Positions 4,138 to 46,106 of a stretch of DNA of 46,106 nt are shown one piece after another. Source of the DNA: Alkalinema sp. RU_4_3. Lineage in GTDB: Bacteria > Cyanobacteriota > Cyanobacteriia > Leptolyngbyales > Leptolyngbyaceae. The notes below the pieces were generated by a model. The model saw only the letters and a program-made list of their open reading frames with translations, did not search any database and was not told where the DNA came from. Positions within the stretch are counted from its first letter, which is position 1, and every line of letters starts with the position of its first letter. Location: assembly GCA_012031975.1 (NCBI GenBank), contig JAAUSA010000012.1, positions 1 through 46,106 on the forward strand, read 5' to 3'. Position numbers and translations under genes: made by a program.

Positions 4138-4748
4138 TGTGTGGCTTTGATGGTGAGGCTGCGATCGTGTTTCTTCAATGGTCAAATGTAGCTCTGCATT
4201 CAGTCCGCTAAAAGTGACTGAAAAGGGCTTTAGGCGAGGTGTTTTACCTCTGTATTAATGCCTCAAATGCTTGTCGATATCATTGCAGGCTAAAGACCAT
4301 CAAAATGCTTGAAACCCTTTTCAGAAAGGGAATCTATCCTACAGGCTTAAGACTAGAACTCTCTTAGACAGACCTCAGTTCACTGATAGCTAACCACACA
4401 TTATATACGTACATAAATCTACCTCCTCAACCGGATAACAGGGACCTGGCAGTAAAACGACCTAAAAATAGCCGAACTACCTGCCAGGATTGCCTTTGGA
4501 CCTGGCAGTAAACTTGAAGAGTTTAGTTTGAGGTTAAGCCCTTCAAAAATGGCTGAAAAGGCTTCTGATCAAGGATTTATACCTTGAAGTTAAGCACTTT
4601 TGAACAGTAGAACGGATATTTTAGCCCTGGGATAGATGAAACACGCGCTCAAAATGTTGTAGGAATAATCAGTCGGCTTTTAGGATTGCTACCAACAACC
4701 CCAAAAGCCTAACCACATCCCTTGAAACAAGCAAAGGACAGGCTAAGT
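4138..4748. other. Non-coding region with small hairpins and repeated CCTGGCAGTAAA word
   Basis: About 610 bases carry no convincing gene. They hold a direct repeat GACCTGGCAGTAAA (4443-4456 and 4499-4512) flanking a small palindrome CCTGCCAGG (4480-4488), and short hairpins at 4236-4250 (GAGGT/ACCTC) and 4315-4330 (CCCTTT/AAAGGG). The region leads into the frameshifted gene at 4749 and may hold its promoter or a relic control region. No terminator with a T run was found after the toxin gene. Confidence 0.5.
4443..4512. repeat. Direct repeat GACCTGGCAGTAAA with central palindrome
   Basis: Two identical 14-bp copies, 56 bp apart, bracket CCTGCCAGG, which is the core of the same word in near-palindromic form. 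The arrangement (site, inverted half, site) looks like a protein-binding array upstream of the gene at 4749. No binding protein is identified. Confidence 0.6.
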
Positions 4749-40836: not shown

Positions 40837-41490
40837 GTCCTGAGAAATCTAAGAACCAATTTGCGATCCTCTTCCAGCAATATCAGACTCAACAAGCTGA
40901 AGATCCTCAGGACTTAGCAAAATCACAAAAAAAAAATATCCTCCACAAAAAAAAGCGCCAAAACGACTAAAAAATCAAAACCTAAAGTCCCGGAAATTGA
41001 AACCCCAGAGATTGAAGCCCTAGAAGCTAAAACCCTAGAGATTGAAATCTTAGAGGTTGAGACGCCAGAGGTTGAACCTTTGGATGACGACCTCGATCAA
41101 GGCAATCTTGAAGTCATCCGAGCGACCCGAACACTGCCACCTCGTCGGCCCCGAAAGCAGGAGAGACCACAAAATCCTACGCTTCAGAAGCTCCTAGACG
41201 AGGAAGCCCTCAAAGAAGCAGAGGAGCAATCAGGCCCCAAAAAGCGGGGCCGCCCAGCCAACGGAAAACGTTCCGACCCTAATTGGTCCGCCCGAACCTT
41301 TTACATTCGCAAAACCACCGATGCAAAGGTCGAGCGCGTTCTAGATCAAATGAAACGCTACAACATCAACCTCGACAAATCAGAGCTGATCGATCTGCTG
41401 CTAGAAGCCTGGTCGATGGTGGAATCCGGCGAGATCGATGATTTTCAGATTGGCGAAATTCTCCAGATCGATCCACCAAAACTCAAGTAG
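40833..41490 (+). pseudogene. ParA partner protein (probable ParB/ParG-like), interrupted at an A10 run
   Basis: A start at 40833, coupled to parA, reads MSPEKSKNQFAILFQQYQTQQ and then meets a run of ten A at 40927-40936, after which it stops. With nine A the frame runs on without break through a Lys-rich part, an acidic repeat region (PEIETPEIEALEAKTLEIEILEVETPEVEP) and a C-terminal domain (NWSARTFYIRKTTDAKVERVLDQ) to 41490, about 218 residues in all. The C-terminal part resembles ribbon-helix-helix DNA-binding partners of type Ib ParA (beta-strand RTFYIRK followed by two helices). The open frame from 41080 is only the distal two-thirds. An extra A may be a sequencing error, a real mutation, or a slippage site allowing two products. 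A repeat unit (41443-41460) encodes part of its own C-terminus (DFQIGEI). Confidence 0.78.
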
Positions 41491-41582: not shown

Positions 41583-44500
41583 TTAGGTGGGAAATGGAAC
41601 AGAATTCCTCGGCGAATGCGGGATTTTCCTAATCAAGTTGATTATTTCCTGAAACTTTTGATTTAGATGGACGAACGTAGTCTTTTTGTACTTTTCAAAC
41701 TCATTGTTGAGAAGACTCGACGACAAGTAGTTACCCCTTTCTATAACTATTGATTCAATGGGGGTTACTACAGATGGAGAGGGAGGATCCTTGGGCTGTA
41801 GTAGGCAATCGCTTGTCTCAACATTGTTGCTGCATCGGCGTTGATGACGGCGATGGATGATTGTGATGACGGTTTGATAGTGGTCGAGATCGAGGGTATA
41901 GAAGCGCTTTTGTTGACCTCGGGATCCAAGGCGTTGCGATCGGACCTTTAGACCTAACTGTAGACAGAGGCGTTGGAAGATCCAGCCATTGTTGGCATGT
42001 TCTTCTGCGGGGACGGTAAAGCCCAGGATTTCTTTGACGTTTTGGCGGTGGCTTCGGACTGCGCTGCCTAGGGGTTCTAAATCTTCATTGCTCCAAGTCT
42101 GTCCTGGTACTAGAAAGGGCAACAGTCCGAGGCGATCGCGAACAAACTGTTTCAAGGCTTCAAACCGCATGTCGAGGGGCAACAGTTCCTGTCCCCACTG
42201 GGCCTGACGAGCTAGGGCGGCTACATCTTTGGCTAGGGCAAAATCTGTGCCGTAGAAAAGTGCTTCCAACTGGGGAATAGTCTGGCGATATTCCTGGTAG
42301 AAGGCAATATCTTCGGGTGTGATCTGGTGGGTTGCTAAAAATTCTGAGGCCTGGGTCTTCTCTATATTGAGCTTGTCCTCAGGAGTTAAGATTTCTTTGA
42401 CTTTGAGGGCCTGGAATTCTTCTTTGCTGAGAATCCTCGCTGTTGAGATGGCGATTTGGTAATCCCGCTTTGCCTGTTGTTTGGCTTCCTTCATTTGGAT
42501 TCGGGGTGATCGCTGGTCTGCTTCAGATTCTAGGGTTTCTAGGGTGACTTGACTGCCTTCACTCTCTAGCCGTGCCTGGAGGCGATCGCGCAGGGACCAT
42601 AGAGATTGATTAGTTTGGGCGACGAGTTGGGCGAAGGTTTGGATGTGGGGGCTGTCTTGCCAGAGCTGTTCTGTCAGTTCCTTACCGAGCAGGTCTGAAA
42701 ATCCTAGGGAATGACGCAGCAGGGCGGCTGTCATGTCAATTTTGGTCTTGAGCTGATAGCAGATGATATTGGGATTGGTGCTGGTGCTGAGCTTGTGGAA
42801 GTTCGTACCTTGTTTGGTGCACCAGACGACGCGGGGGACATTGTCGCGAACTCGATTGAGGGCTTGGGCGGCATCGGCATCGGTGATTACGCCGTAGAAC
42901 AGTCCATAGACCACATCTATATGGGGGACTTCAATGCTGACACCAGTGGTGAGGCTGGGAGTGGCAATCACCCAGTCGTAGTGACTGATTTCTTGGTTGG
43001 GATTGGTGATGAAGGCGCGTTGCTTGGGGTTGCTGGAGGTTTTGCTGTTGATGAGTAGGCCATTTTTAGCTTGTTTGCTTTGGTTTATTACCTCTTCTAG
43101 GGCTTCAGAGGCGCCGATGGAGTCGGTGGCAATGAAGATTCGTTTGCCAGTGGTGAGGTCTTGCAGGATTTGATCGATGATCGGGTCTTCTTTGGTGTTT
43201 TGAAGAAATTTGACGGGGAAGCTTTGGGGGCGATAGGTGTTCTGGATTAAGTAGATTGCTGTGGGCTGGTTACGCAGGTTGCGAATGTAATTGATGCCGA
43301 TATCTGCGGCATCAGCGTCGGCCAGGATGATCAGCTTGGCTGCCTGGATCACGGCTTGGAATCTAGCGAGGAGGAAGGCTCGTTTTCCGTCTTTGTCACA
43401 GGTGTTGCTCAGGAGTAGGTGGCGCAGGACCTGCATGAATTCATCGATCACCACAATTCCATCGCGAAACTCCTCAGGATTGATTCGCCCCAGGCTATCG
43501 ACACAGAGGCCAACGCGGTGGGTGAGGCCCGAGGCATTGAGGGCTTGGCCTCGGAATTCGTCGAGGTCCGATCGATAGTCCAATCCCATGCGATCGCACA
43601 GGTTCCGCATCAAGGCAATGCGGTGGCCGAGGGCAATCACGCGATCGCTTGTGTGGATCCGTTCGACGATGGCCTTAGTTTTGCCCGTGCCTTTGGGGGA
43701 GGACAGGACTAGGATGCCTGTGTCTGGAATCGAGGTGGATGCCTGCCAAGGTTTGAATTCAGCTTGGTGGACGGAGAGGCTGGGTGTTTGTTTGAGTTCC
43801 TGGGCTTTCTGCCATTGCCATTGCCAGAGGTTGAGTGCTAGGGCTTGGGTGAAGGCTTCGGCAAAAGCTGTGGATCCTCTGGCCACGATGAAGTCATCAA
43901 CCCCTTTCTCGGGACCAGGGAGGGTGATGACGCTGACGGTGGATCCTGATTGCTGGAGCAGGCGGCCTGTGGTGGCGATCGCTAGGTTGACGTTGTGGCG
44001 GGTATTGGCCTTGGTGTCATGGTCAAAACAGAGGTAGAAGGGGCGTCCGGTTTGGGCGAAGAGCGCCAGTTCTGGAATCAGGGTTTCGCTCCAGATTTTG
44101 CCAGCGCTGTCCCGCATGACTCGGCGGCCATTGAAGACGCCTGGGAGGGCGATCGCGTCGTAACCCAAGCTGATCAGGGCTGCTGCCTTCTTGACTCCCT
44201 CGACAATCAGGATGGGGCGATTGGCATCGGCTTGGACTTCAGCCCAGCGGTTGGGATGGTCTGGATCCAGAAGGAAGAAGGCGCGGGTGGGTGTCTTGAG
44301 CGGATGCTCGTACTTGATGGTTTTGTTGCGTTCTAGATCGACGCGGGGGCGATCGGGCTTGAAACAGCCCCAGAGCATGGGATCCCAGGACTTCTCAGGG
44401 TCCAGGCCACTGCACCACCAGCCGCCTGCCTCGATGTGGCTGTATCGGTTGAGTACTGCGGTGGTCAGTCGGCCTGAGTTGGTGCGGGCCAGTCCTGGGG

Positions 44501-44660
44501 CGGAACAGAGGCGATCGAAGGGCAGGTCGCCCTCTAGGCTAGTGAGATTGGCGGCGATGATCTGCGGGGCTATACCGCTGTCTAGCCACTCTTGCCAGTG
44601 TGGTGCATTGATATGGCCTGGAATGCCTATGGAGGCTTCCAGAAGGGAAATGGATGGCAT
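41583..44660 (-). CDS. Plasmid replication protein, CyRepA1-type (DUF3854 + helicase-like)
   Basis: The 1025-residue protein has the architecture of the cyanobacterial CyRepA1 plasmid Rep family. The N-terminal DUF3854/Toprim-like part (about 100-260) contains ILIVEGVKKAAALISLGYDAIALPGV and FYLCFDHDTK. A superfamily helicase-like ATPase follows, with Walker A LSSPKGTGKTKAIVE (about 318-332), Walker B GIVVIDEFMQ (about 400), and later motifs KRIFIATDSIGASEAL, WVIATPSLTTGVSIE and AQALNRVRDNVPRVVW (arginine-finger motif VI-like). It probably combines origin opening with primase or helicase function. Members of this family drive replication of Synechocystis plasmids. The gene is followed by repeat cluster E and preceded by a structured leader, the likely origin and copy-control region. 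Confidence 0.85.
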   Translation of the reverse strand: MPSISLLEASIGIPGHINAPHWQEWLDSGIAPQIIAANLTSLEGDLPFDRLCSAPGLARTNSGRLTTAVLNRYSHIEAGGWWCSGLDPEKSWDPMLWGCFKPDRPRVDLERNKTIKYEHPLKTPTRAFFLLDPDHPNRWAEVQADANRPILIVEGVKKAAALISLGYDAIALPGVFNGRRVMRDSAGKIWSETLIPELALFAQTGRPFYLCFDHDTKANTRHNVNLAIATTGRLLQQSGSTVSVITLPGPEKGVDDFIVARGSTAFAEAFTQALALNLWQWQWQKAQELKQTPSLSVHQAEFKPWQASTSIPDTGILVLSSPKGTGKTKAIVERIHTSDRVIALGHRIALMRNLCDRMGLDYRSDLDEFRGQALNASGLTHRVGLCVDSLGRINPEEFRDGIVVIDEFMQVLRHLLLSNTCDKDGKRAFLLARFQAVIQAAKLIILADADAADIGINYIRNLRNQPTAIYLIQNTYRPQSFPVKFLQNTKEDPIIDQILQDLTTGKRIFIATDSIGASEALEEVINQSKQAKNGLLINSKTSSNPKQRAFITNPNQEISHYDWVIATPSLTTGVSIEVPHIDVVYGLFYGVITDADAAQALNRVRDNVPRVVWCTKQGTNFHKLSTSTNPNIICYQLKTKIDMTAALLRHSLGFSDLLGKELTEQLWQDSPHIQTFAQLVAQTNQSLWSLRDRLQARLESEGSQVTLETLESEADQRSPRIQMKEAKQQAKRDYQIAISTARILSKEEFQALKVKEILTPEDKLNIEKTQASEFLATHQITPEDIAFYQEYRQTIPQLEALFYGTDFALAKDVAALARQAQWGQELLPLDMRFEALKQFVRDRLGLLPFLVPGQTWSNEDLEPLGSAVRSHRQNVKEILGFTVPAEEHANNGWIFQRLCLQLGLKVRSQRLGSRGQQKRFYTLDLDHYQTVITIIHRRHQRRCSNNVETSDCLLQPKDPPSPSVVTPIESIVIERGNYLSSSLLNNEFEKYKKTTFVHLNQKFQEIINLIRKIPHSPRNSVPFPT

Positions 44661-44690
44661 CGTATGCTCTCTCTACAAGTTAGGTGGAGA

Positions 44691-44881
44691 GGGACATAAA
44701 GAGCAAACTGACACCAAACTCAAACAGCTTTCAGAGATTGGACTACTTGCGGTTCGTCACAAAATCTTTTAGACTGGAAGCTAATATTTGACAACTGTTA
44801 CTCCTGCGAAAGAGTTTTTTTGTTGTTTGGGTTGGTGTCAGTTAGGTCAGACTTTTAGAAGTGTCTGGCTCTTTATGTCCC
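44691..44881. repeat. Nested inverted repeats in the rep leader
   Basis: GGGACATAAAGAGC (44691-44704) pairs exactly with GCTCTTTATGTCCC (44868-44881). Just inside, ACTGACACCAA (about 44707-44717) pairs with TTGGTGTCAGT near 44832-44842. The arms begin about 30 bases upstream of the rep start codon on the transcribed side. Confidence 0.85.
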
Positions 44882-44899
44882 GATAACCCTTTTTAGAAG

Positions 44900-44934
44900 C
44901 CTGAAGGTCATTGGTCGTGACTTTCGGGTTTTTT
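44900..44934 (+). terminator. Rho-independent terminator, plus strand, opposite the rep leader
   Basis: CCTGAAGGTCA (44900-44910) and TGACTTTCGGG (44918-44928) form an 11-bp stem with two G-U pairs, followed by six T (44929-44934). The nearest upstream plus-strand start would be inside the rep leader, so this terminator implies a short RNA there. Confidence 0.75.
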
Positions 44935-45362
44935 ATTGGTAAGGTTCTTTGGGTCTTGGACTGATGACCTAGGGACGGTCTTGATCTTGCGATCAAAGCA
45001 CTTTAGACATAAAAGGGTGGCGATCGGTAGGCTTTGGTCAGTCTTGAGGCCCACTAGGTGGATCGATCTAGATCGATTGTCTCGAAACGAGATTTACGAC
45101 CTAAACAGACTGAATGGCGGCTTACAGATCAGTTTGATACTAGTTAATCACAATCTTCCCCAGGATCAATATCTATCCCAAGATAGTTCTCTTCAAAATG
45201 GGCTTGGGGTGGGGGCAGAAATGCTCTGGGATGCTTTGCTAGGAGTCGTTGTGGCGATCGATCGATTTTTTCTTTTTTGCGAACTTGATTACAATATGTT
45301 GCGTAGGATCCATGCGATTGCTAGATCCATTGTCAGGATTACCTTTGAGCCCATCTTTTCGT

Positions 45363-45511
45363 ATTTTCGGATTGGCAAAAATACATTTTCAGATTGGTGA
45401 AATTAGAATTTCGGATTGGCGAATTGGCGAAATTAGAATTTCGGATTGGCGAATTGGCGAAATTCAAAAGCTTTATGTGGCAGGGGTTTCAAATTTCGGG
45501 TTGGCGAAAAT
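45363..45511 (+). repeat. Iteron-like repeat cluster F (5 copies, two with an internal 8-9 bp duplication)
   Basis: Copies lie at 45365-45382, 45385-45404, 45407-45434, 45437-45464 and 45492-45511. The third and fourth are identical 28-bp forms in which GCGAATTG is duplicated within the unit, giving a perfect 30-bp tandem repeat. This is the largest iteron array on the rep side and a good origin candidate. Confidence 0.92.
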
Positions 45512-45669
45512 AGCTGTTTTGTAGGGCCATAATCCAGGCTTTAGATAGAAGTTAGACGTGGTTTCGGGCTGAAAAGTTGACTTGCGGGAGCGTCAATGGA
45601 GTGGGTTGCCCTTAGTCCTGTTGACCGAGACAATGTAGAAAGTAGATCAAAACTCTTTTAGGAAAAGTT

Positions 45670-45894
45670 ATGTCTGAATCAACCACTGTACCCACAGCCC
45701 AGGAGATTACCGAGACCATTCAGGAGCTCGAACAGTACCGTGAGCGTTTGGTCTCTGAGACGATGGAGACGGCTAAGAAGGCAAAAATGATGAAGGCTAC
45801 TGTGATGGCCCAGCTGGAGCCGGAGCTTGCCCATATTGATGCGGGCCTTGCGGGCCTCCGCGCCCAGCAAGCTCAAATCGAAGCCAGTAATTAG
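45670..45894 (+). CDS. Small coiled-coil protein, unrecognised
   Basis: The 74-residue product is soluble, acidic and almost all helical: AQEITETIQELEQYRERLVSETMETAKKAKMMKATVMAQLEPELAHIDAGLAGLRAQQAQIEASN has heptad-like spacing of hydrophobic residues, which suggests a helical hairpin or coiled coil. A well-spaced AGGAAAAG precedes ATG 45670. It faces nblA, and the two share a long hairpin. Its place at the edge of the phycobilisome genes suggests a link, but no function can be given. Confidence 0.65.
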   Translation: MSESTTVPTAQEITETIQELEQYRERLVSETMETAKKAKMMKATVMAQLEPELAHIDAGLAGLRAQQAQIEASN

Positions 45895-45933
45895 ACCGCA
45901 GTTGAGATCTTGGGCCGAATAAGTCTACCTAAA

Positions 45934-45977
45934 ACAAATCGCCAGCTATGCCTATGTCAGGATAGTTGGCGATTTGT
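45934..45977. terminator. Bidirectional terminator between small gene and nblA
   Basis: ACAAATCGCCAGCTAT (45934-45949) pairs with ATAGTTGGCGATTTGT (45962-45977) over 16 bp with one G-T mismatch. The nblA stop codon is in the loop. The window starts inside this hairpin; its right arm reappears at 16-31. Confidence 0.8.
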
Positions 45978-46106
45978 CTTTGGGGCTAGGCTTAGATTTT
46001 TTTACCAGGTGACGGATGACGTTGTCCTTAATCATCAGTTGGCGCATGACTTCCAGGAGACACTCTTGGGCTTGCTCCGAAGACATGGATTTGACCTGGT
46101 CCTGGT
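45947..46106. repeat. Terminal overlap, right copy
   Basis: This is the second copy of the window's first 163 bases, with a T run of 7 instead of 9 and a G run of 4 instead of 5. It is the same physical DNA as 1-163 in a circular molecule and should be counted once. Confidence 0.9.
45952..46106 (-). CDS. nblA: NblA, partial (overlap copy of the gene at 6-215)
   Basis: This is the C-terminal part of nblA, cut by the window end. The three-base difference changes the residues after HLVKK to SKPSPKDKSPTILT but keeps the frame. It is not a second gene. Whether this or the left copy has the correct homopolymer lengths is undecided. Confidence 0.8.
   Translation of the reverse strand, partial: QDQVKSMSSEQAQECLLEVMRQLMIKDNVIRHLVKKSKPSPKDKSPTILT

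Follow-up and report, generated by a model that had tools for sequence, protein, structure and literature searches.

A long inverted repeat followed by a terminator-like hairpin lies directly upstream of the replication gene of a plasmid from Alkalinema sp. RU_4_3, which raises the question of whether this region encodes an antisense RNA and, if so, how such an RNA would act on rep. The window, i.e. the whole stretch of 46,106 nt that was analysed, corresponds to positions 1-46,106 of contig JAAUSA010000012.1 (GCA_012031975.1). The contig ends overlap by about 160 nt: the first 163 bases (1-163) and the last 160 (45947-46106) are the same apart from homopolymer length, and the window thus closes to a complete circular plasmid of about 45.95 kb. 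The Rep protein scores 418 bits with the NCBIfam model NF042913 (cut-off 200) and carries the primase-related Pfam domain DUF3854 (142.6 bits). A ParA gene is also present on the plasmid.

The region probably specifies a plus-strand cis-antisense RNA, about 245-275 nt long, by which rep expression would be limited, most likely by way of the rep leader and its translation. The relevant features are listed below, where L003 denotes the locus of the closest distinct relative of rep.

41583..44660, minus strand: cyRepA1-family replication gene, 1025 aa, with DUF3854 and CyRepA1 domains (NCBIfam, Pfam)
44661..44934, plus strand: putative antisense RNA gene, complementary to the rep leader, 5' end at about 44661-44690 (fold z -6.9, plan shared with L003)
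44670-44676/44684-44690, no strand assigned: small hairpin adjoining the rep start, alignable with L003
44691..44704, plus strand: closing helix, 5' arm, 14 bp, three two-sided changes relative to L003
44706..44717, plus strand: nested helix, 5' arm, 12 bp
44720..44794, minus strand: possible 24-aa leader ORF (AGGAG, 6 nt, TTG start) in the apical part of the folded leader, candidate
44832..44843, plus strand: nested helix, 3' arm, 12 bp
44848..44867, plus strand: side hairpin CAGAC/GTCTG between both helices, giving a three-way junction (from folding)
44868..44881, plus strand: closing helix, 3' arm, 14 bp
44900..44934, plus strand: intrinsic terminator with an 11-pair stem, 7-nt loop and six T, counterpart in L003 at 4636-4664
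45371..45513, no strand assigned: iteron-like direct repeats around TTGGCGAAATTAG, spacings 30, 30 and 47, candidate origin

Folded element and terminator upstream of rep

The initial annotation had described a perfect 14-bp inverted repeat, a second pair nested within it and a plus-strand hairpin terminator with six T residues, all of which were confirmed: the outer arms (44691-44704/44868-44881) are complementary at 14 of 14 positions and the nested ones (44706-44717/44832-44843) at 12 of 12, while the terminator consists of a stem (44900-44910/44918-44928), a 7-nt loop and the run TTTTTT at 44929-44934. None of 2000 dinucleotide shuffles produced a 14-bp arm at the spacing of the window, the longest shuffled arm being 12 bp. 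The interval 44661-44934 folds with -105.2 kcal/mol (z -6.9) on the plus strand and with -80.4 kcal/mol (z -6.2) on the minus strand. Outward from the rep start, the plus strand presents the small hairpin, the closing helix, the nested helix, the side hairpin, a spacer and the terminator, and the folded element reaches to within 30 nt of the rep ATG. On the minus strand the small hairpin (44670-44690) overlaps the likely ribosome-binding site of rep; its local fold there (z -0.3) is not significant alone. Minus-strand ORFs of at least 60 aa are absent from 44661-44934, the longest candidate being that of 24 aa.

The terminator hairpin has an energy of -18.8 kcal/mol in a purpose-made scan; a consensus terminator scan of the window returned no terminator, the 44900-44934 hairpin included. 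The stem contains the wobble pairs T44902-G44926 and G44906-T44922, which turn into A-C mismatches on the minus strand, suggesting that the hairpin is fitted to the plus strand. Hairpins reaching -12 kcal/mol are not rare by themselves in the window (16 on the plus and 14 on the minus strand), and the argument therefore rests on position and conservation rather than on the hairpin alone. The earlier statement that nothing is coded on the plus strand is fair, as just one ORF (44191-44772; 193 aa, TTG start), which lies antisense to rep and has no Pfam match, reaches into the interval with its tail. The last plausible plus-strand gene (ORF 41080-41490) ends 3.4 kb before the terminator, which thus serves no ordinary gene. 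The sense strand of the rep leader yielded no terminator in the terminator scan and, unlike in Inc18 and pT181 attenuation, none stands between the target and rep, which argues against transcript attenuation. Elsewhere on the plasmid, a hairpin at 45937-45974, located 3' of a small ORF (45670-45894), qualifies as a strong terminator hairpin by its score whichever strand is read (-20.4 and -17.5 kcal/mol).

Promoter prediction recognised no plus-strand promoter in the window, and promoter-like sites on the antisense strand are not enriched across the family (16 of 57 loci, shuffle mean 15.4). The same test was also blank near the proven antisense RNA of the Synechocystis plasmid pSYSA, so that promoter prediction is uninformative here.

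Conservation and divergence among cyRepA1 leaders

The search for relatives of rep covered 194 related genomes, 386 from the phylum and 42 from the order (overlapping sets), and L003, whose Rep is 61% identical, was the only close yet distinct relative found. It keeps the whole plan in the same order, with the start hairpin, an 18-bp closing helix (0 of 2000 shuffles) and an antisense terminator at 4636-4664, composed of CCTCATCTG/CAGATGGGG and then TTTTT. The check by folding and covariance that had been proposed initially came out in favour of the structure: besides the strong folds on both strands, the 14 aligned pairs of the closing helix comprise 11 that are unchanged between the window and L003, three with two-sided changes and none that is broken. 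The L003 helix also gains three pairs inserted in both arms and one at its end, while a hybrid helix between the L003 5' arm and the window 3' arm forms 11 of 14 Watson-Crick pairs, or 12 with wobble. Pairs added in both arms would be hard to explain without selection for pairing, in a comparison of two sequences. The flanks of the two elements align (30 of 48 and 50 of 84 columns identical) but the apical middle does not (74 of 163), a divergence that would be expected of a recognition region. The arms are separated by 163 nt in the window and 116 nt in L003, and the L003 leader has one sense-strand terminator (-9.1 kcal/mol).

A blastn search of PLSDB returned no direct DNA relatives, and a scan of genome contigs returned one locus, L032, a near-identical copy of the plasmid in the MAG CRU_2_2 (G097) that agrees at 1039 of 1040 upstream positions. 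Its terminator stem is short by one base and its rep fragments contain stops; the recorded coverage of this copy is 1.7, and these deviations are therefore probably sequence errors. Viral contigs searched with the rep of the window and that of L003 gave no match, and phage records gave merely remote matches to rep.

In the wider family, antisense-strand terminators occur at -420 to -60 in 29 of 57 CyRepA1 loci, compared with sense-strand ones in 11 of 57; the set includes three near-repeat loci, without which the antisense count is 27 of 54. Inside the rep gene, antisense-strand terminators were found in 4-6 of 41-43 loci. An earlier, overlapping set gave 31 of 58 on the antisense and 14 of 58 on the sense strand, with six shuffles giving 5-10 of 58. 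The scan found no antisense terminator in 28 of the 57 loci, and farther upstream (-840 to -480) it found one in 17 of 55, indicating that part of the enrichment is shared by the intergenic region as a whole. As a positive control, it recovered the 3' hairpin of asRNA1 of pSYSA. Arms of at least 12 bp were found in the window and L003 only, among 58 loci. By eye, L060 and L061, whose Reps are 47-48% identical (residues 138-952), as well as L019, L024 and L030, have a start hairpin, a hairpin domain and an antisense terminator. A start hairpin with z below -1.8 was found in 12 of 57 loci versus 7 of 104 control stretches; the window (z -0.3) is not included.

Mini-ORFs cross the start hairpin in several loci (by eye) and pairs of a Shine-Dalgarno sequence and a start codon are scattered, while the 24-aa ORF with its AGGAG, 6-nt spacing and TTG is not generally conserved. 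Since any reading frame would be expected to contain some ORF by chance, a leader peptide is kept as a possibility only. Two sequence motifs recur among the leaders: GCTGCTGCATGG is common to the otherwise mostly unalike leaders of L015, L024, L030, L031, L069 and L075 (in part also L073), and GGACTCTAACT occurs in those of L024, L029, L030 and L060 and makes hairpin arms in several loci.

Leptolyngbya BL0902 harbours three coexisting plasmids (L100, L101 and L102) in which the rep starts (+50 to +200) are 82-100% identical and the DNA at -650 to -450 is 80-96% identical, but the leaders (-350 to 0) share 32-74% identity in 50-nt blocks. In this one strain, the leaders thus have the look that would be expected of an incompatibility determinant, and the clear signature is limited to these three plasmids. 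The L060/L061 pair bears a mild form of it. The leaders of L111/L112 and L113/L114 are divergent, but the DNA farther upstream is mostly divergent too; two plasmids found together in a P. galeata strain do not differ in their leaders. The variable valley is absent in L009/L064 and in the same-genome pairs L109/L110 and L115/L116, and also in L107 compared with L109 and L110.

Proposed mode of action and known antisense systems

The proposed antisense RNA would start near the rep start codon, end at the terminator (44934) and fold into the small hairpin and the large, closed three-way hairpin. Its complementarity to the 5' leader of the cyRepA1 mRNA would be complete, and that leader would take the mirror structure. 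As plasmid copies increase, so would the antisense RNA; pairing would probably begin at the variable apical loops and hold the leader in a conformation that permits little translation of rep, thereby keeping the copy number low, and plasmids with the same apical loops would be incompatible. The block may be exerted via a short leader ORF: translation of the 24-aa ORF could unfold the nested helix, similar to the role of leader peptides in IncFII and I-complex plasmids. Transcription of the RNA, repression by it and a block on translation, as opposed to primer formation or attenuation, are predicted from sequence. The initial claim of a small plus-strand RNA over the rep 5' region gains its support from comparison, namely from L003, the terminator survey and the pSYSA positive control.

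Antisense RNAs at cyanobacterial rep genes have already been published for pSYSA (PMC9978351) and pSYSX (PMC10899382), and a literature search on CyRepA or CyRepA1 with antisense, incompatibility and cyanobacteria gave no further case among the matches listed. According to the available part of the pSYSA report, asRNA1 of Synechocystis 6803, which has been mapped and blotted, comprises three stem-loops in about 150 nt; it starts 166 nt ahead of the rep ATG and runs antisense to the 64-aa leader ORF ssr7036 (PMC9978351). The hairpin at its 3' end lies about 318 nt from the same ATG, again on the upstream side. The parallel with pSYSA that had been suggested for the window holds in outline, both having a CyRepA1-family rep with an antisense-strand terminator just upstream, but RNA size, position, leader ORF and fold differ: unlike pSYSA, the window has no leader ORF of the size of ssr7036, and one large closed hairpin reaches the rep start instead of three stem-loops. 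The window may thus represent a differently built version of the antisense control known from pSYSA.

For pSYSA a ColE1-like primer model has been proposed, in the portion of the report at hand (PMC9978351). Transferred to the window, the leader transcript of the rep strand would be the replication primer, the maturation of which the antisense RNA would block. The iteron-like repeats and the long non-coding stretch upstream, as well as the fact that pSYSA is the only studied relative, speak for this kind of control, which is nevertheless unlikely, as the element directly abuts the rep start codon with a start hairpin alignable with that of L003, Rep has its own primase-related DUF3854 domain, and the ColE1 RNAI family (RF00106) has no match up to E 5 in 44300-46106. 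The repeats around TTGGCGAAATTAG at 45371-45513 are a possible origin; no counterpart of the array was found upstream of the L003 rep.

The good fold of the minus strand (z -6.2) would also suit a leader that controls rep translation through mRNA folding by itself, the plus-strand terminator then stopping stray antisense transcription through rep. This is quite improbable, since the wobble pairs of the terminator suit the plus strand alone and antisense-strand terminators upstream of the family outnumber sense-strand ones. A DNA-level function of the long inverted repeat, as a Rep-binding site or a cruciform at the origin, would fit its place on the replicon adjoining rep and the compensated changes, which are compatible with any inverted repeat because the arms exist in DNA as well, but it is very improbable given that the arms lie 163 nt (window) and 116 nt (L003) apart, unlike usual binding palindromes, that a terminator follows in both loci, and that the iteron-like repeats, located elsewhere, make better candidates for the origin.

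The proposed cis-antisense RNA acting on the rep leader has relatives in outline beyond pSYSA. In pSYSX, antisense RNAs over the rep start region of CyRepX1/CyRepX2 are suggested to block translation; unlike in the window, the Rep family is a distinct one, the RNAs start inside the coding region, and the available text of the report describes no long closing helix (PMC10899382). The REx-C module of Pseudomonas plasmids, as far as the part of the source at hand goes, contains a putative antisense RNA terminator with compensated changes, further stem-loops, an optional leader ORF and rep, and occurs with several rep families (PMC5304414). Unlike the window, it involves ColE2-related RepA-PFP and RepJ Reps, other sequences and other hosts in that part of the account.

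Rfam searches of nine leader loci gave nothing above the gathering thresholds; the best match in the window, RybB at 44864-44937 (20.6 against a cut-off of 40, E 0.31), was rejected as a random resemblance to a generic terminator. In IncFII and I-complex plasmids, the antisense mechanism involves a UUGGCG target loop with a pseudoknot partner. The window resembles their CopA/CopT-tap-repA and RNAI-repY-repZ systems, as these are presented in the accessible part of the source (PMC10724649), in having a putative antisense RNA facing a folded rep leader and a possible leader ORF. Unlike them, it has no Rfam CopA match, UUGGCG loop or pseudoknot partner, and its Rep is different. TTGGCG is absent from both strands of the 360 nt upstream of the window rep; the L003 leader has the UUGGCG motif, with no pseudoknot partner seen by eye. 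The loop was seen in L003, L006, L015, L019 and L060 and was rejected as a family feature, with 8 of 57 loci on the sense strand compared with a shuffle mean of 4.1 and a maximum of 9.

A conserved RNA candidate beside other CyRepA genes

Alignment of the leaders of a related clade, followed by a covariance model, revealed another candidate, R1, a conserved RNA of about 90 nt that combines an extended -10 element (TGATACAAT) with a hairpin and a terminator, the latter including a conserved ACTGTGGTAGG stretch (loci L127-L146, e.g. L127 1501-1627 on the plus strand, and L147-L154). With this model, 21 of the 41 genomes from the order gave a single hit each. In 20 of them R1 sits immediately 5' of a CyRepA-family gene, in the opposite orientation, as judged from the protein motif for 19 and from coordinates for G000:C308; the remaining hit, in G012, is located 5' of a Prim-Pol-like gene (weak Pfam match, E 0.061). 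Two-sided changes affect 11 of 23 pairs on 21 sequences, compared with 0 of 500 shuffles and 1-4 in slid controls, the alignment being fitted to the model. The class as a whole yielded 29 matches in 242 genomes, 14 of them outside the family of the window, and in the seven examined loci outside it (L148-L154) R1 is located between a Prim-Pol-like gene, upstream of which it lies, and a divergent conserved gene. The model does not match the window; the genome of the window has its own R1 (G000:C308:13749-13881) beside another CyRepA gene. The one member locus scanned, L090, gave no Rfam match for R1. At least two R1-CyRepA cases are on contigs larger than 6 Mb, so the locus is probably chromosomal.

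That R1 occurs next to replication genes of two kinds is reminiscent of the exchangeable REx-C modules of Pseudomonas, to the extent that the source portrays them (PMC5304414). Exchangeable antisense-RNA leader modules might govern both plasmid and chromosomal CyRepA genes, the window representing a large-hairpin type with an incompatibility-setting apical part, and R1 a chromosomal type retained across an exchange between CyRepA and a Prim-Pol-like protein in the neighbouring primase-like gene. DnaA-independent replication is a described theme in cyanobacteria. Some cyanobacterial chromosomes would then contain a plasmid-like, RNA-controlled replication locus as a candidate for DnaA-independent initiation. 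We regard this generalisation as tentative and rather doubtful, and its link to DnaA-independent replication is speculation.

CyRepA1-type Reps are widespread in cyanobacteria, and among the papers found their copy control has been studied on pSYSA only. A conserved antisense plan would help to explain the coexistence of several CyRepA1 plasmids in one cell, would provide a handle for tuning the copy number of cyanobacterial vectors, and would allow a direct test of primer-type versus translation-type control. The R1 candidate makes the role of the chromosomal CyRepA homologs testable.
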